Assembly (NCBI GenBank): GCA_019163135.1
Contig: JAFLKR010000051.1
Location: forward strand, 1-64,000
Direction: 5' to 3'
Length of the DNA: 64,000 bases
Origin: Desulfobulbaceae bacterium
Lineage (GTDB): Bacteria; Desulfobacterota; Desulfobulbia; Desulfobulbales; Desulfobulbaceae
Below the pieces are notes generated by a model that had not been told where the DNA came from, did no database searches, and was given only the letters and a program-made list of their open reading frames with translations. Every line of letters starts with the position of its first letter. The stretch's first letter is position 1. The position numbers were made by a program, and so were the translations under genes. Shown here piece after piece: positions 17,313 to 61,252 of this stretch.

Positions 17313-19922
17313 ATGAACCGTTCCAGCCTTATCATTACCATTATCATGGGATGCCTTGCCGTATTACTCTGGAAAGTCGTCAATGCGCCCAACATGGAGC
17401 CCCCTTGGCCATCAAAAATACAGGGATTTTCTTTCTCACCCTTCCGCGAGGGACAATCCCCCAGTAAAAAGATTTACCCATCGGTTGAGGAAATCGACCG
17501 AGATCTGGCGGTACTGGCCGGTGATGTCCATGCGGTCAGATCCTACACCGTTGAAGACAACCTCGCCGAGATCCCCCGCCTGGCCGCCGCCAGGGGGCTA
17601 AACGTCGTCTTAGGGGCGTGGATTGCCACGGACGAAAAAGAGAATGAGGAACAGGTCGAAAAACTGATCAAAATTTACCGGGAAAATCACCGGAACATCG
17701 TTCGGGTCCTGGTCGGCAACGAAGTGCTGCTTCGCGCTGACCAGACCGTTGATCAGGTGATTCATTATATTGATACCGCCAAAAAATCCATCTGGCAAAA
17801 AGTCAGTATCGCCGAACCCTGGCACGTCTGGCTGCAGAACCCGAAACTGGTTGAACATGTCGATTTTATAGCTGTCCACCTGCTGCCCTACTGGGAAGGA
17901 ATCCCTATCGATGAGGCCGTGGATTATTGCGTGATGCGCTATAACGAGTTGCGCAAGGCCTATCCCGATAAAGAGATCATTATCGCAGAGATTGGATGGC
18001 CCAGCGCCGGACGAATCCGTCAAGGCGCCGTTCCCAGCCCGACCAATCAAGCCAAATTTCTGCGGCGTTTTCTCGATGTCGCTGAAAAAAACAATTACAC
18101 CTATTACATCATGGAAGCCTTTGACCAGATCTGGAAAAAGGATCTTGAAGGGGAAGCGGGCAGCCAATGGGGTGTCTACAATGATGAACGGCAACCTAAA
18201 TTTGAATTCACCCAACCGGTTATCAGGATTCCCCAGTGGCGGGAGCTGGCCGCCATCAGTATCGCTTTGGCTGTCCTGATCCTGCTCCTGTTATTCAGAG
18301 ACAGCAAAGGACTGCTGGATCGCGGCCGCGGTTTTCTTGCTATTGTTGCCTACGCCATCACCACCTTTGCCGTATGGGTGGTCTATGATTTCCAGTCCCA
18401 GTACATGACGGCCTCATCCTTGCTGGTCGGCATTGTCCTGCTCATTGCCGCCACCGGCGCGATCCTCGTTATCCTGGCAGAGGCGCACGAATGGGCGGAA
18501 TCGCTGTGGACCCACAAATGGCGGCGCCTTCCCCAACAGGTTGAAGCCGTTGCCGATGACGATCTACCGATGGTGTCGATCCATGTCCCAGCCTATAACG
18601 AACCACCGGACATGATGATCCAGACAATCAATGCCTTGGCGGAATTGGATTACCCGCGGTTTGAAGTTCTGGTCATCGATAACAACACCAAAGACCCGGC
18701 GGTCTGGGAACCGGTGGCAGCGCATTGCCAGACCATGGGCCCGCGTTTTCGATTTTTCCATGTGGCCCCGCTCGCCGGTTTCAAAGCAGGCGCCCTCAAC
18801 TATGCTCTTCGAGAAACAGCTCCAGAGGCGGAAGTGGTGGCGGTCATAGACAGTGATTATCTGGTGGAACCCAATTGGCTCCGGGCCTTAACACCTAACT
18901 TCGCCGATGAGAACATGGCCATCGTCCAAGCCCCTCAGGATTACAGAGACGCCGACGAAAACACCTTCAAAGCCATGTGCATGGCCGAGTATCGCGGATT
19001 TTTCCAGATCGGCATGGTGACCCGCAATGAACGCAATGCCATCATTCAACACGGCACCATGACCATGGTGCGACGCAAAGTGCTCGATGAGGTGGGGGGC
19101 TGGGCGGAATGGTGCATAACCGAAGACGCGGAACTGGGGTTGCGAATCTTCGAAAAAGGCTACGCGGCCTGCTATGTGCCGCACAGTTACGGCAAAGGCC
19201 TGATGCCCGACACCTTCCTCGACTATAAGAAGCAGCGCTTCCGCTGGGCCTATGGCTCCGTGCTCATCCTCCGCCATCATATGATGGCGATGTTCGGCCT
19301 GGCCAAGACCAAACTGACCCGAGGTCAGCGCTACCATTTTCTTGCCGGTTGGCTCCCCTGGTTCGCCGATGGCATCAACATGCTGTTTAACATCTTAGCC
19401 TTGGGCTGGTCCTGGGGCATGATGATTTTCCCGGAATATTTATCGCCGCCGCATATTGTCTTTGCCGGTCTCCCGATAGCTCTATTCTTTTTCAAAAGCT
19501 TAAAGATGTATTTTCTCTACCGCCGCAGACTGGACGCTACTCGCCGCCAAAGCCTTGCCGCCGGTCTGGCGGGCCTGGCCCTGTCGCACACCATCGCCAG
19601 AGCCATGCTCACAGGGTTCCTCACGCGCCGTATCGGCTTTTTCCGTACCCCCAAAAAGGCGCAGGCCAATGCCTTTTTTAAGGCGCTGGGGGATGCCCGC
19701 GAAGAACTGCTATTCGCCCTGGCGCTTATCCTGGCGATTATCGGGGTATTAATGCGGGAAGACGGCGACATGCTCGACGTACGCATATGGACGCTGGTGC
19801 TGGCTATCCAGGCTATTCCCTACAGCGCAGCGGTCATAATCTCTTTAATCAGTGGTCTGCCGAAGTTACCGGCAAAACTGGTTGGAGTTATGGCCCCGCT
19901 GCAGGGGGTAAAAAACGATTAA
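17313..19922 (+). CDS. ndvB: NdvB-type beta-glucan synthase: GH17 transglycosylase fused to GT2 glycosyltransferase
   Basis: The 869-residue membrane enzyme begins with a signal anchor (residues 5-25), then an outward GH17 domain (about 35-300) with the acid/base VGNE (Glu137) and nucleophile AEIGWPSAG (Glu226). Transmembrane spans at about 311-330, 340-360 and 368-388 lead to a cytoplasmic processive GT2 domain (about 418-650) with IDSD (Asp513, Asp515), the TED catalytic motif (Asp605) and QRFRW (641-645). Further spans end the protein. The order and length match NdvB of Pseudomonas aeruginosa, which makes cyclic beta-1,3-glucans tied to biofilm tolerance. In this family GT2 extends beta-glucan from UDP-glucose and GH17 branches or closes it. 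Galactose/UDP-glucose epimerase galE lies 10 kb away. Its stop overlaps the convergent SNF2 stop. Confidence 0.85.
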   Translation: MNRSSLIITIIMGCLAVLLWKVVNAPNMEPPWPSKIQGFSFSPFREGQSPSKKIYPSVEEIDRDLAVLAGDVHAVRSYTVEDNLAEIPRLAAARGLNVVLGAWIATDEKENEEQVEKLIKIYRENHRNIVRVLVGNEVLLRADQTVDQVIHYIDTAKKSIWQKVSIAEPWHVWLQNPKLVEHVDFIAVHLLPYWEGIPIDEAVDYCVMRYNELRKAYPDKEIIIAEIGWPSAGRIRQGAVPSPTNQAKFLRRFLDVAEKNNYTYYIMEAFDQIWKKDLEGEAGSQWGVYNDERQPKFEFTQPVIRIPQWRELAAISIALAVLILLLLFRDSKGLLDRGRGFLAIVAYAITTFAVWVVYDFQSQYMTASSLLVGIVLLIAATGAILVILAEAHEWAESLWTHKWRRLPQQVEAVADDDLPMVSIHVPAYNEPPDMMIQTINALAELDYPRFEVLVIDNNTKDPAVWEPVAAHCQTMGPRFRFFHVAPLAGFKAGALNYALRETAPEAEVVAVIDSDYLVEPNWLRALTPNFADENMAIVQAPQDYRDADENTFKAMCMAEYRGFFQIGMVTRNERNAIIQHGTMTMVRRKVLDEVGGWAEWCITEDAELGLRIFEKGYAACYVPHSYGKGLMPDTFLDYKKQRFRWAYGSVLILRHHMMAMFGLAKTKLTRGQRYHFLAGWLPWFADGINMLFNILALGWSWGMMIFPEYLSPPHIVFAGLPIALFFFKSLKMYFLYRRRLDATRRQSLAAGLAGLALSHTIARAMLTGFLTRRIGFFRTPKKAQANAFFKALGDAREELLFALALILAIIGVLMREDGDMLDVRIWTLVLAIQAIPYSAAVIISLISGLPKLPAKLVGVMAPLQGVKND

Positions 19923-43565: not shown

Positions 43566-45011
43566 TCATCGAAAACGCACGCTTACCGGACAATGATCGG
43601 AACCGGTGACCTCCCCATGGATTGAGGCATCAAGAACTCGATCGCTACTGGCACCATCGATAATAAAATAATCAATTCTCCACCCAATATTTTTAGCACG
43701 GGCATTAAAACGATAACTCCACCAGGTATACTGGGCCGGCGACTGATTGAATTTTCGGAAGGTATCAATATATCCAGCAGCAATCATTTCATCCATCCAG
43801 GCTCGCTCCAGTTCGGAAAAACCAGGATTTTTGACATTTGCCTTGGGATTGGCGAGGTCAATCTCCTTATGCGCAACATTCAAATCGCCACAGAGCACCA
43901 CCGTTTTATCCTTACTAAGACGATCCATAAAATCGAGCAGCACACGGTTAAAATCCTGCTTGAAGGCTAAGCGCTTGAGTTCGGGTTGTGCATTGGGCGA
44001 GTAACTGTTGATAAAATAAAAATCCGGATATTCGAGCGTCAACACGCGTCCTTCATCATCAAACTCGGGACAATCGAGACCATAGAGGATCTGGAGAGGG
44101 GCCAACTTGCTAAAAACTGCTGTCCCTGCATACCCTTTTTTCTTGGCAGGATACCAAAAAGCCTGATATCCGGGGAGAGTTCGAAGTTCATCAGGGAGTT
44201 GATCCGGCTGAACTTTTATCTCCTGCAAGGCAAGGATATCGGGGTCCAGATCTCGCAGCACTTCAAAAAAACCGTTTTTCAAAGCGGCCCTGAGCCCGTT
44301 GACATTCCAGGAAACCAATTTTTTAGCCTCTGCGGTTGGCGCTATTGTCATCTTATCAATTTTCCGTGGCGTCACGCCAATCTTAGGACATAATGCTGCA
44401 ATGACGCAACGGTGACAGTGGGGTCGCTGCGGTCTGCATGTCCCCTGACCGAACGTCACTAAAATCGAATTAATCCGAATCCAATATTTGATTGGCAATT
44501 TTTCACGCAAGGCCATTTCGGTCTGCAGTGGAGTCGCTGTCTGCACATAACCCCAGATGTTCATAATGCGGTGAACATGGGTATCGACGCAGATCGCTGG
44601 TTCATTAAAGGCCACAGCTACGACAAGATTTGCGGTCTTGCGCCCAACCCCTGGCAATTTGAGCAGGGATTCAATATCATGGGGCACGACACCATCAAAC
44701 TGCGTATTAAGCACTGCCGGCAATGCTCTGAGAAACTTGGCCTTGTTGCGAAAAAAGCCTACAGGATAAATGTTCTTTTCCAGCTCAGGCAATGTCAACT
44801 GGGCAAGTTCACTAATAGTGCCGGCTCGGGCAAACAACCGACGAGAGGCAGCTGCGGTCACCTCATCTTTGGTGCGCGCTGAAAGAATGGTCGCGACCAG
44901 CACCTTGAACGGATCTTTGGTCTGGGTTGCAATCAAGTCGACCACCGGAACCTGATAATCCCGGATTTCACGTTCCAGAAGCAGAATAATCTTGTTAATG
45001 GGGAAAGTCAT
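43566..45011 (-). CDS. Endonuclease III (Nth) - exonuclease III/ExoA fusion
   Basis: One 481-residue frame joins two base-excision-repair enzymes. Residues 1-210 are Nth: LPGVGRKTANLVV with catalytic Lys125, VDTHVHR with Asp143, and a complete [4Fe-4S] Cys set at 192, 199, 202 and 208 with the exact C-x6-C-x2-C-x5-C spacing. Residues about 230-481 are an AP endonuclease of the ExoIII/ExoA class: SWNVNGLR (Asn236), LQEIK (Glu264), NSYSPN (Tyr337), GDLNVAH (Asp376, Asn378) and the final GSDHCPV (Asp472, His473). About 20 polar, Lys/Pro-containing residues link them. Met221 in the linker could be an internal start for a free ExoA, but no ribosome site precedes it. So both a glycosylase/AP lyase and the enzyme that cleans AP sites or its 3' ends are predicted in one cytoplasmic protein. 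I see no frameshift or sequence gap at the join. Confidence 0.93.
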   Translation of the reverse strand: MTFPINKIILLLEREIRDYQVPVVDLIATQTKDPFKVLVATILSARTKDEVTAAASRRLFARAGTISELAQLTLPELEKNIYPVGFFRNKAKFLRALPAVLNTQFDGVVPHDIESLLKLPGVGRKTANLVVAVAFNEPAICVDTHVHRIMNIWGYVQTATPLQTEMALREKLPIKYWIRINSILVTFGQGTCRPQRPHCHRCVIAALCPKIGVTPRKIDKMTIAPTAEAKKLVSWNVNGLRAALKNGFFEVLRDLDPDILALQEIKVQPDQLPDELRTLPGYQAFWYPAKKKGYAGTAVFSKLAPLQILYGLDCPEFDDEGRVLTLEYPDFYFINSYSPNAQPELKRLAFKQDFNRVLLDFMDRLSKDKTVVLCGDLNVAHKEIDLANPKANVKNPGFSELERAWMDEMIAAGYIDTFRKFNQSPAQYTWWSYRFNARAKNIGWRIDYFIIDGASSDRVLDASIHGEVTGSDHCPVSVRFR

Positions 45012-48052: not shown

Positions 48053-49624
48053 TCAGACGATGATCATGCCTTTGATCCATAAAAAGGCGATGGCTGCCAG
48101 CAGGATTGTACCGTAGATCGACACCAGAGCGACACTCAATCGCAACAGAACCTGTTTCCTTCGGGTTTCCGCATCTTTTTCGAGATAGGGGATGGCACTT
48201 ATCACGGGTACACCGAGATACTCTTCTATTTCCCGGGCATCCTTGAAAGAAGTGTCAATAAACTCCATGGCTACGATGGTACCGACACTCAACGCCAGAC
48301 CTGCGGCGATGGCTGCGAGGAGGATTTTCAGAAAATTAGGTTTGGACGGCTTCTCGGGCAGCCGGGCGGAATCAATAACTTTAAATTTGCTGCCCTTTTG
48401 ATTGTGCTCCAGTTTTTCTGCGGATTGGGCCTGCAGATTCTGGGCAACCAAATAGTCATAATGGCGACGCAACTCTTCATAGTCCCTAGTCAGCCCCTTC
48501 CATTCCGCTTCCCGCACCGGGGCAGCCTCAACCCATTTCTGATACTTTTCGATCTCTTCTGGGACAGTCGCCAAGCTAAATCGCAATTCCTTAATATTAC
48601 TATCGATTTCTTTTAGTTGCAGTTGTAATCGCTGGCTTTCCATGCTATCTAGAAGGTTAGCCCGACTTGGCGCGAATGCTGCCGATTGAGGAGATAAGGG
48701 TTGTTCTTTGCCTACCTTCCCCTCCAACTGCTCGATCAACTGTTTGGTTCGTCGTACTTCAGGATGCTGTTCTGTGTATTTCGAAAGCAGGTCACTTAAA
48801 TAGACTCGTAATCGTTGCAATCGTTCGACATTGGTCTCACCCTGCCGACCGGTCCCAACGGTCTCACCAGTGACACGTGTTGCGGCCAGACGCTGTTTCC
48901 AAACCATCTGCTCCTGGGCCATAATCTTGGTACGCTCAAGTTCCTGGATGGAATTCTGTATGCCCTGGCTCCGCTCATTCAACGCTTTGATCCGGGCGAG
49001 ATTGCTTTCCCGTTGTTCCGGCATTTCATTAAAATACTTCAGCTTGTAATCCCGCATGAGCAGTTCTTTTTCATCAAGCACCTTCTTGGACATCGCCAGT
49101 TCATCCTGGGTATACTTGGAGGTCTCGGTCGCCCGTACCTCCCGATACTTGAGATTCTCCTCAATAAACAACGAAGCAAGGGAATTGGTGACCCGCATGA
49201 CCTTTTGTGGGACCGCCCCCTGGAAGGAGACACTGAAAATATCACCCTTGGGTGCCGGTTTAATGATGATATCCTTGCGCATGCTCTCAATGACATCCTC
49301 TATCGGCAACTTTTTCCTGGCCTCCTCGTACAAAGAAAACTGGGTGATTACCTTTTCTAGGCTGTTGCGGCTCATGACCATTTCTTTCAGCGTCGCCAAG
49401 GTTTCTTCCAGTTTGACTTTTCCTTCCTCAGGAGCCATTTTGGCAGGATTGATCTGTCGTTGCTCGTAACTGAGGAGCGCGTCGCTCTGATAAATTTTTG
49501 GAACATAGAGATAATAGACGAGGCCCGCAGTGATGGCAAGCAGCAGGCTGGCGGCGATCAGCCGCCATCTATCAATAACTAGATCGACGCACCTCTTAAT
49601 CAATTGACGCTGTTTACTGTCCAT
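48053..49624 (-). CDS. Wzz-type polysaccharide chain-length determinant
   Basis: Polysaccharide co-polymerase of the inner membrane. The 523 residues have one span near the start (about 18-35), a long periplasmic coiled coil (about 180-395, with KYTEQHPEVRRTKQLIEQL), a Wzz C-terminal stretch with the proline-rich RLPEKPSKPNFLK before a second span (about 432-450), and a third hydrophobic run at the C terminus, after a cytoplasmic loop of about 45 residues. It is the first gene of the Wzz-ATPase-kinase run. Starts 40 bases from the divergent phosphatase. Confidence 0.88.
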   Translation of the reverse strand: MDSKQRQLIKRCVDLVIDRWRLIAASLLLAITAGLVYYLYVPKIYQSDALLSYEQRQINPAKMAPEEGKVKLEETLATLKEMVMSRNSLEKVITQFSLYEEARKKLPIEDVIESMRKDIIIKPAPKGDIFSVSFQGAVPQKVMRVTNSLASLFIEENLKYREVRATETSKYTQDELAMSKKVLDEKELLMRDYKLKYFNEMPEQRESNLARIKALNERSQGIQNSIQELERTKIMAQEQMVWKQRLAATRVTGETVGTGRQGETNVERLQRLRVYLSDLLSKYTEQHPEVRRTKQLIEQLEGKVGKEQPLSPQSAAFAPSRANLLDSMESQRLQLQLKEIDSNIKELRFSLATVPEEIEKYQKWVEAAPVREAEWKGLTRDYEELRRHYDYLVAQNLQAQSAEKLEHNQKGSKFKVIDSARLPEKPSKPNFLKILLAAIAAGLALSVGTIVAMEFIDTSFKDAREIEEYLGVPVISAIPYLEKDAETRRKQVLLRLSVALVSIYGTILLAAIAFLWIKGMIIV

Positions 49625-58525: not shown

Positions 58526-61252
58526 TCAAGTATCTTTCTTTTCATTTTTCTCAACCTTTTTTTCCTGATTGCTCCCACCTTGCGGAGGCAACAGCGGTTG
58601 CCATTTAAGCCAATCCTCTTCGAAGGTTTTGACCAAAGGGAAATGATATCCCGGGGCGGCCGGAACCCCCATCTGCTCAGCCTCGGGGGTTGCCAGGGTG
58701 ATCCCGCCGGTAAGCAGGGCTTCCATGGATTCAGTGCTGACGGTCATGCCGCTCATCACCCCGCCGCTGACCCTGACGCCGCTGGCATTCCAAAATTTGG
58801 TACCAGTGTAGATCAGCTTGGTATAGGCGGGTTCTATATTGGCGGTGATCCAGACTTCCTGGGCGGTGGGGGACAACTGGAAGCCGGTGACCTGGCCGAC
58901 CTTGACCTGCCGGTAATAGAGGGGGCTGCCTTGCTTGAGCGAACCCAGGGTCGAAGTTTCCAGGACGATATTAAGTCCGTTGGCCGGTTGGAAGGTGTCG
59001 GCGGCCAGGGCCAGAACGGTGAAATCGGTCTGGGGCTGACCCGATCCGGCCCGAATATCGATATAAGCCCCGGAGAGCAGGGTTTCGAGATGGCGGACGC
59101 CGGTGAGGCTCACCTCCGGCCTGACCAGACGCAGGATGGTGTTCTTGCGGAACAGCCGAGCCATTTCCTGAGGCACACAGACCTCACCGCGGACGCCGTT
59201 GGAGGCAGAATCCAGGCGGATAGCGGTCACCTTGCCAAGGCTGATGCCCTGATATTTGATCTCGGTGTTTTTGGTGATGCCCTCACCGCTGCTGAAATGC
59301 AGACTCAAACGCAGGGCGTCGGCGTTGGCGGCCTCCTGCAGCGACTCGTAGAGCACGAGGATCTGGCCGGGCCGGAGGGGGTCGCTTTTGGTGCCGCTCA
59401 AAAAGGCGATGCCGCCGTTGAGCAAGGCATCGAAGGGCGCGGTCTCCAGGTTGACGCCCTGGAGGGAGGCGGTGAACTTGACGCCAGCAAAAATATAAAA
59501 GCGGGACGAGCCGGTCACCAGGTCACGATAGCCCTCGTTGACGAGGAGTTGGATGAGGGTCTCTCGACGATTTTTGGCGAGATCGAAGCCGAGCACTTCG
59601 CCTACCTTGATATTATTGTAGAGAACCGGCGCGCCGACGGTCAGCGGCGGCGCCTTAGCGGTGAACAATTGCAACCGCAACCCTTTGTGTTCCAATTCAG
59701 GAACCGCCTTAACCGCTTCGCCGTAGGAATCAAAAATCTTGAAAGTGCTCTCCGCCTCCGCCGGGGGAAGGGAGGTGCCGGTTTTTAACTGTGGATTGGC
59801 AAAGGCCACCCCTCCAGCCAGCAAGCTCTGGACCGAACCGAGATTGACCTGGAGCCGGGAAAGGCTGGCCTCGACCTTGACGCCTCCCGAGTTCCAGAAC
59901 ACAGTTTTTTTGTTGATCAATTCATTATAGGGGTGATGCAGCAGCAGGCGAATATGGACGGCATCCCCCTTGGGGGCGAGGGTGAGGCCACTGATCTCAC
60001 CAACTGCGATCTGTTTGTAGAGAACCGGCGCCCCGATGACCAAACCGCCGCTGTCAGGGGCGATCAGCGTATAATGGGTGCCGGGGCTGATGGTGGGTTT
60101 GGCCATCGGGGTCGTTTCTTCGACAAAACGATCCTGTCGTTTGCCCTCGCCGATTTCAAAGGTGATGAACGGCCCAGTGAGAAGGGTCTCCAGGTGTTTG
60201 ACCCCGGTGATGTTCACCTCCGGGCGAATGATCCAGAATCGAGTGCGCTCTTTGAGGATTACCTCGGCCCGTGGGTCAAGGAGCAGGGTGGCGGTGACGG
60301 TGTGGAACTGATCATTGTTGATGTCGATATTCTTGACCACCCCGGTCTTGAGGCCCCGGTACATCACTTTGGTTTTACCGGCGACGATGCCTTCTCCCGT
60401 GGCTAGTTGCAAGGTCATGTTGATGCCGTATTCGGCATCCTCGAAATCTTTGTGGAGCTTGAAAGTGCTTTGGTTGTCCGCCGGATCTGTCTGTTCCAGG
60501 GATGGCGGGGTGGCGCAGGTAATGCCACCGTAGATGAGCGAGGCGAGCGACTCAACATTGACGGTCAGGCCGCTTTGGACATCGCCGGTCAGGCTGAGAC
60601 CGCTGGCGTTCCAGAACCGGGTGCCGGTGCGGATCAGATGGGCAAATTTGGCGTCAATAAAGGCTTTCAACACGATCTTGCCATTATCCTGAAGGCTGTA
60701 GTCCTCCAAATAGCCGATCTGCAGGTTTTTGGTGTAGATATTGGAACCGCGCTGCAGCGAGTAAAGAGTCTCGGTTTCCAGGGTGATATGGAGGCCCGGG
60801 GTGGAGGTGTCGAGGGAGGGTTGTTCGGCCAGCCCTTCAAAGCTGGTAGCTAAATTGGTTGAGCTGCCTTTGCGCATGCCGATATATGAGCCGCCGAACA
60901 GGGTATCCAGGCCGCTGATCCGCCCGGCCGAGACTTCGGGTTTGACGACCCAGAAGGTGCTGTCCTCGACCAGGGCGCTACGGGTCTGGCGGTCCATGGT
61001 AATAACCAGGTTAACCCCCTGCATCCCTTCGTCAACCTCCAGCCGTTTGACCGTGCCGACGGGAATCCCTTTGACGATGACCTTGGTTTTGCCGGGGGTG
61101 ATGCCGGTGGCATCCTGGAAATGTACGGTGATTTCAACGCCGGCATCCCGGATAGTGGTGTAGAGCAGCCAGCCGCCGATGCACAGGGCGACCAGAGGCA
61201 GAATCCAGATAGGGGAAATGCTGCGTCGTTTACGAATGAGTGGTTTTTCCAT
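58526..61252 (-). CDS. letB: LetB/YebT-like protein with seven MCE domains
   Basis: Periplasm-spanning lipid-transfer tube. The 908 residues hold one N-terminal membrane span (about 14-34) and seven MCE domains starting near residues 39, 154, 276, 393, 524, 646 and 759, each with a strand and a VGxV/IGxL-type turn. Escherichia coli LetB has 877 residues and seven MCE domains, PqiB only three, so LetB is the better match. The C-terminal tail is short and charged. It follows letA by three bases, the known pairing with LetA. Confidence 0.9.
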   Translation of the reverse strand: MEKPLIRKRRSISPIWILPLVALCIGGWLLYTTIRDAGVEITVHFQDATGITPGKTKVIVKGIPVGTVKRLEVDEGMQGVNLVITMDRQTRSALVEDSTFWVVKPEVSAGRISGLDTLFGGSYIGMRKGSSTNLATSFEGLAEQPSLDTSTPGLHITLETETLYSLQRGSNIYTKNLQIGYLEDYSLQDNGKIVLKAFIDAKFAHLIRTGTRFWNASGLSLTGDVQSGLTVNVESLASLIYGGITCATPPSLEQTDPADNQSTFKLHKDFEDAEYGINMTLQLATGEGIVAGKTKVMYRGLKTGVVKNIDINNDQFHTVTATLLLDPRAEVILKERTRFWIIRPEVNITGVKHLETLLTGPFITFEIGEGKRQDRFVEETTPMAKPTISPGTHYTLIAPDSGGLVIGAPVLYKQIAVGEISGLTLAPKGDAVHIRLLLHHPYNELINKKTVFWNSGGVKVEASLSRLQVNLGSVQSLLAGGVAFANPQLKTGTSLPPAEAESTFKIFDSYGEAVKAVPELEHKGLRLQLFTAKAPPLTVGAPVLYNNIKVGEVLGFDLAKNRRETLIQLLVNEGYRDLVTGSSRFYIFAGVKFTASLQGVNLETAPFDALLNGGIAFLSGTKSDPLRPGQILVLYESLQEAANADALRLSLHFSSGEGITKNTEIKYQGISLGKVTAIRLDSASNGVRGEVCVPQEMARLFRKNTILRLVRPEVSLTGVRHLETLLSGAYIDIRAGSGQPQTDFTVLALAADTFQPANGLNIVLETSTLGSLKQGSPLYYRQVKVGQVTGFQLSPTAQEVWITANIEPAYTKLIYTGTKFWNASGVRVSGGVMSGMTVSTESMEALLTGGITLATPEAEQMGVPAAPGYHFPLVKTFEEDWLKWQPLLPPQGGSNQEKKVEKNEKKDT

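Follow-up and report, generated by a model that had tools for sequence, protein, structure and literature searches.

The ndvB-type locus and the predicted protein

The window, the whole analysed stretch of 64,000 nucleotides of a Desulfobulbaceae bacterium (GenBank assembly GCA_019163135.1, contig JAFLKR010000051.1), contains an ndvB-type gene coding for a protein of 869 amino acids in which a membrane anchor is followed by a GH17 domain, transmembrane helices, a GT2 synthase domain and more helices.

17313-19922, forward strand: ndvB-type gene, 869 aa, stop codon included; open reading frame from ATG, as given in the initial annotation
17325-17381, forward strand: N-terminal transmembrane anchor, residues 5-23 (hydropathy)
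17424-18212, forward strand: GH17 domain, approximately residues 38-300 (Pfam, sequence and fold matches; limits approximate)
17721-17723, forward strand: E137 in VGNE, acid/base glutamate by family motif (invariant in 47 of 47 aligned proteins; role as tabulated for the motif in PMC10237404)
17988-17990, forward strand: E226 in EIGWPS, nucleophile glutamate by family motif (invariance and source of the role as for E137)
18240-18476, forward strand: three inter-domain transmembrane helices, residues 310-388 (310-328, 340-358 and 370-388; hydropathy)
18567-19256, forward strand: GT2 domain, residues 419-648, with D456, D513/D515, E604-D605 and QRFRW at 641-645 (Pfam, alignment)
19437-19883, forward strand: C-terminal transmembrane helices, residues ~709-857, with the FFRTPK gating-loop motif at 776-781 (hydropathy, motif)

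Full-length copies of the same genus, which are 70-96% identical and have no internal stop, confirm that this open reading frame is a real and intact gene. Promoter-like and terminator-like sites (3 versus 2.4 in shuffled sequences, sd 1.4, and 6 versus 3.4, sd 1.6, respectively) are recorded with nothing claimed from them.

One polypeptide thus holds the N-terminal GH17 and the C-terminal GT2 domain, the combination by which the family is recognized. While the GT2 families of Pfam are readily matched, with the best stretch at residues 419-648 (E 2.8e-29), Glyco_hydro_17 at residues 214-298 scores 27.3 bits (E 3.5e-6), slightly below the curated 28.2; in a whole-genome search the same site reaches 28.8 bits, above the cut-off, with no signal in 14 control genomes. 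As Pseudomonas aeruginosa NdvB itself obtains only 20.6 bits, a weak GH17 score is common to the named family member. The GH17 assignment is firmer from direct comparison with the β-1,3-glucanosyltransferase of Rhizomucor miehei (4wtp), which residues 54-291 match with E 2.4e-25; residues 318-808 match a chain of the cellulose synthase BcsA (4hg6, E 2.6e-24). A structure prediction built from 15 sequences was poor (mean pLDDT 61, pTM 0.40), so that only single-domain matches were used; in this model, the first Foldseek match is BcsA chain 5ej1 and the predicted GH17 part resembles 4wtr (target TM-score 0.82). Hydropathy, with the crossings counted, places GH17 and GT2 on opposite faces of the membrane, and the start of the protein together with its family suggests that GH17 faces the periplasm.

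Elsewhere in the window, three genes on the reverse strand are of note. The gene at 43566-45011 codes for a 481 amino acid protein in which an endonuclease III-like (HhH-GPD) domain is fused to one of the exonuclease III type, with 177.6 bits for nth, below the cut-off of 211.7, and 296.3 bits for xth, over its cut-off. A near match to an XrtA-system polysaccharide chain-length determinant at 48053-49624 (247.1 bits, cut-off 278.85) hints at a separate exopolysaccharide locus, while a 908 amino acid protein at 58526-61252 shows MlaD (MCE) domain matches in two stretches.

Assignment to the NdvB family

The P. aeruginosa gene annotated as ndvB (WP_003082380.1, taken as reference) adjoins dapE and codes for a protein of equal length (869 aa), with which the window protein shares 51.9% identity over 98% of the query, 45.4% in the GH17 and 68.5% in the GT2 domain. 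The GT2 motifs D, DxD, ED, QxxRW and FFRTPK are all present, in strings equal or close to those of P. aeruginosa NdvB.

Loss of the GH17 catalytic glutamates in relatives had been named in the initial annotation as an observation that would speak against its proposal. Judged by the VGxE and ExGWP motifs, which Spiers et al. tabulate (PMC10237404), E137 and E226 are kept throughout 47 aligned full-length fused proteins, the window's own, 20 of the same genus, 25 from the remainder of the phylum and one from P. aeruginosa, and so are the GT2 residues D456, D513, D515, E604, D605, Q641, R644 and W645. This alignment omits the contig-end fragments of three genomes (G006, G017 and G020), a two-frame protein (G375, L112) and five GH17 proteins lacking a GT2 alignment (L085, L086, L107, L108 and L110).

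Grouping of the GT2 domain with cellulose or other synthases would equally have spoken against an NdvB-type enzyme. The GT2 tree had 44 rows, 34 GH17-GT2 proteins, with 13 of the 20 same-genus rows omitted, and ten other GT2 sequences, namely three BcsA, E. coli PgaC, OpgH, two plasmid-borne, two further GT2 of the window genome and one of Enterococcus. A branch with support 100/99 separates all 34 GH17-GT2 rows, P. aeruginosa NdvB included, from the other ten, BcsA, PgaC and OpgH among them; the reference rows are long branches, about which the program warned, and identity and architecture agree with the grouping. In a GH17 tree of 37 rows, 32 fused proteins stand apart from five GH17 proteins without a GT2 match. 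Three GH17 proteins of 555-666 aa (L107 in G093, L108 in G342 and L110 in G340) match the window protein over GH17 only, group with plasmid-borne GH17 of Azospirillum and Bradyrhizobium, and occur in genomes that also hold the fused enzyme.

A cellulose synthase, or another β-1,4 or PNAG-type synthase, to which a GH17 domain has been added, could be read from the best NCBIfam match, the CelA/BcsA model, and from the BcsA chains among the first Foldseek matches. This is very improbable, as the score of 113.5 bits is far under the cut-off of 699.1, P. aeruginosa NdvB gives the identical match pattern, no PilZ match is found in the window protein (Pfam, E 0.001) and the GT2 tree, within the limits set by its long reference branches, separates the protein from the three BcsA, PgaC and OpgH; a cellulose or PNAG synthase identity was rejected by PilZ absence, CelA/BcsA score and tree. 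Length, architecture, the common GT2 clade and the invariant glutamates instead bear out the likeness to Pseudomonas NdvB originally noticed, and support the assignment of the predicted protein as an NdvB/'Orphan'-type synthase, a typical representative of an already known family. GH17, NdvB and GT2 are treated together by Spiers et al. 2023, whose tree already contains deltaproteobacterial members and who describe dapE beside ndvB as a pseudomonad trait rather than as family-defining (PMC10237404); beside the window gene dapE is not found, the neighbours being recO upstream and an SNF2 gene downstream. A literature search joining Desulfobulbus with GH17 found nothing.

Distribution and host

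The host genome (3.64 Mb, 98.95% complete) has Desulfobulbus as close named relatives and carries dsrA (579 bits, cut-off 392.85), followed ~250 bases downstream by a weaker match which is probably dsrB, in agreement with the probable sulfate reducer initially presumed. Named genomes yielded 19 loci, 18 of them strong matches and one a remote Enterococcus GT2; the strong loci include eleven of Desulfobulbus (D. elongatus, D. alkaliphilus and D. rhabdoformis among them), two of Desulfobulbaceae bacterium and one of Desulfopila aestuarii.

In a set of 55 genomes, the window's own, 22 of the same genus and 32 from the rest of the order, every one of the 22 congeneric genomes has the ndvB-type gene (three times as a contig-end fragment). 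Beyond the genus it occurs in 1 of 11 genomes belonging to the family and in 7 of 21 from elsewhere in the order; the remaining weak matches are to other GT2 or GH17 proteins. An even sample of the phylum, 395 genomes, gave a strong match to the GH17 part (E below 1e-60) in 26 genomes and a weaker one in six more; one fused open reading frame is present in 25 of the 26. The other (G375, L112, G375:C1:1627500-1639500) has NdvB-type GH17 and GT2 parts in two frames and a short matching piece on the opposite strand, either an assembly fault or a rearrangement.

Within the genus, 19 distinct loci have flanks (three duplicate loci uncounted, gene calling mechanical). At 16 of them the first gene-sized open reading frame upstream is recO, and at 16 the first one downstream is an SNF2 gene in convergent orientation, the exceptions being contig edges or other open reading frames. 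The locus gives the impression of a single gene passed on by descent within the genus. The patchy occurrence outside the genus would fit a gene that has been horizontally acquired or is decaying and has no standing function in the window genome. Such a history is practically negligible in view of the presence throughout the genus, with mostly the same neighbours, the open frame and the invariant catalytic residues, and recent acquisition or decay was rejected on these grounds.

Discussion of the NdvB family has centred on biofilm-linked antibiotic tolerance of Pseudomonas. The constancy of the ndvB-type gene in Desulfobulbus, which is added here, means that antibiotic tolerance is not necessarily its basic role, as the genus consists of anaerobic sulfate reducers, and the gene points to a little-studied envelope sugar of sulfate-reducing bacteria.

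An MdoB/LtaS-like phosphotransferase in relatives

Directly downstream of ndvB and on the same strand, a genome of another genus of the family (G023, L113 8515-10656) and Desulfopila aestuarii (L048) encode an MdoB/LtaS-like protein of 711-714 aa, both proteins belonging to one cluster. A further member is located upstream of ndvB on the opposite strand, separated from it by one gene (G051, L118), and another ~6 kb from ndvB on the same contig (G035:C9:44282-46402). The protein carries a PF00884 domain; its best NCBIfam match, phosphoglycerol transferase I, scores 58.3 bits, far below the cut-off of 572, and among solved structures it is nearest to an uncharacterised Vibrio protein and to lipoteichoic acid synthases, for which reasons it is called MdoB/LtaS-like and not a proven MdoB.

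Close homologues, defined by E below 1e-100, were detected in 17 of the 55 genomes, all 17 among the 31 ndvB-positive and none among the 24 ndvB-negative ones (Fisher p 4e-6, uncorrected for kinship). Outside the genus they occur in 3 of 8 ndvB-positive versus 0 of 24 negative genomes (p 0.011), and in the phylum sample in 7 of 395, each of them ndvB-positive; since these seven are also among the 17, the sample contributes further ndvB-negative genomes without a close homologue, and its positives are all among those already counted. More distant PF00884 relatives are common, with matches at E 0.001 in 55 of the 395 genomes.

No close copy was found in the window genome or its two closest relatives by identity (G019 and G010), nor in several others, two of which are single-contig, 100% complete genomes (G001 and G014), so that NdvB does not depend on the MdoB/LtaS-like protein; some of the absences fall in incomplete genomes (G003, 72%, and G008, 56% complete). 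On a 28-row ndvB tree, presence of the MdoB-like gene is unclustered (9 changes, with 219 of 500 shuffles equally low).

One such neighbourhood of phosphotransferase and ndvB, in Desulfofustis glycolicus, was noted by Spiers et al., in whose account an enzyme that phosphorylates such glucans is a proposal only (PMC10237404). The subfamily described here, found within these samples in ndvB-positive genomes only, provides a concrete lead on this enzyme and suggests phosphate decoration of the NdvB-type glucan in some relatives, the window genome having no such partner. Tentatively, and with slightly less than even confidence, we propose that NdvB-type synthases of Desulfobulbales may feed a dedicated MdoB/LtaS-like phosphotransferase subfamily that would add phosphoglycerol, or a like group, to the β-1,3-glucan; sulfate reducers would then have an anionic periplasmic glucan system other than OpgGH, with the glucan bare or otherwise decorated in lineages without the phosphotransferase, the window's included. 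If this is true, the subfamily makes glucan decoration genetically testable.

Proposed mechanism and product

The enzyme is, with high probability, a β-glucan synthase of the NdvB/'Orphan' type in which GT2 polymerises and exports and GH17 transglycosylates, short, most likely cyclic β-1,3-glucans being released. The cytoplasmic GT2 domain would polymerise glucose from UDP-glucose and the chain would pass through the enzyme's own transmembrane channel, and the periplasmic GH17 domain of the same polypeptide may cut the emerging β-1,3-glucan and re-join it by transglycosylation, whereby the short and most likely cyclic products would reach the periplasm or the medium. This follows the model of Spiers et al., in which GT2 makes and passes the chain and GH17 cleaves and re-joins it, transglycosylation being reported for the GH17 domains of two Pseudomonas orphans (PMC10237404). 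The donor UDP-glucose, the β-1,3 linkage and the ring closure are carried over from the Pseudomonas enzymes and are thus putative for the window enzyme; an osmoregulated or matrix role of its product, along the lines of the osmotic adaptation or biofilm suggested in the initial annotation, is conceivable with still less assurance. According to Spiers et al., no known feature tells which β-glucan a GT2 makes (PMC10237404), and linkage and ring closure are not fixed by sequence.

Alternatively, an enzyme of the same family could produce a linear or branched β-1,3(1,6)-glucan which GH17 trims, elongates or branches without ring closure and which is exported as matrix. That the fungal GH17 relative yields elongated and branched glucans and that Pseudomonas GH17 domains have been shown to elongate (PMC10237404) favours such a product, which is nevertheless unlikely, as the in-cell product reported to be tied to ndvB in the NdvB family is cyclic (PMC2997053) and a general look at the neighbouring genes revealed no outer-membrane export gene beside ndvB. 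The canonical OPG pathway is no evident alternative glucan source in the window genome, as no match to OpgG (PF04349) was found there. In the phylum sample, OpgG occurs in 17 of 395 genomes, none of which is among the 26 with strong NdvB GH17 matches; with about one shared genome expected by chance, this mutual exclusion says little.

Comparison with known systems

Among the closest known systems, P. aeruginosa NdvB and the pseudomonad BcsA-like 'Orphan' cyclic-β-glucan synthases are alike in architecture, in the length of 869 aa, in the GH17 and GT2 catalytic motifs and in the absence of PilZ, but differ in the gene neighbours, dapE in Pseudomonas versus recO and an SNF2 gene in the window genome, and in the host, here an anaerobic sulfate reducer. 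R. miehei Bgt17A (4wtp) has the GH17 domain, both catalytic motifs and the fold in common with the window protein, but is a single soluble domain without a synthase. BcsA shares the GT2 core and the fold of the transmembrane channel, whereas the window protein has the extra GH17 domain, is without a PilZ match and belongs to a separate clade. The OpgGH pathway for osmoregulated periplasmic glucans, which we take to be a possible functional analogue of the NdvB-type system in providing a periplasmic glucan, differs in that E. coli OpgH falls outside the NdvB clade and the OpgG family is without a match in the window genome.
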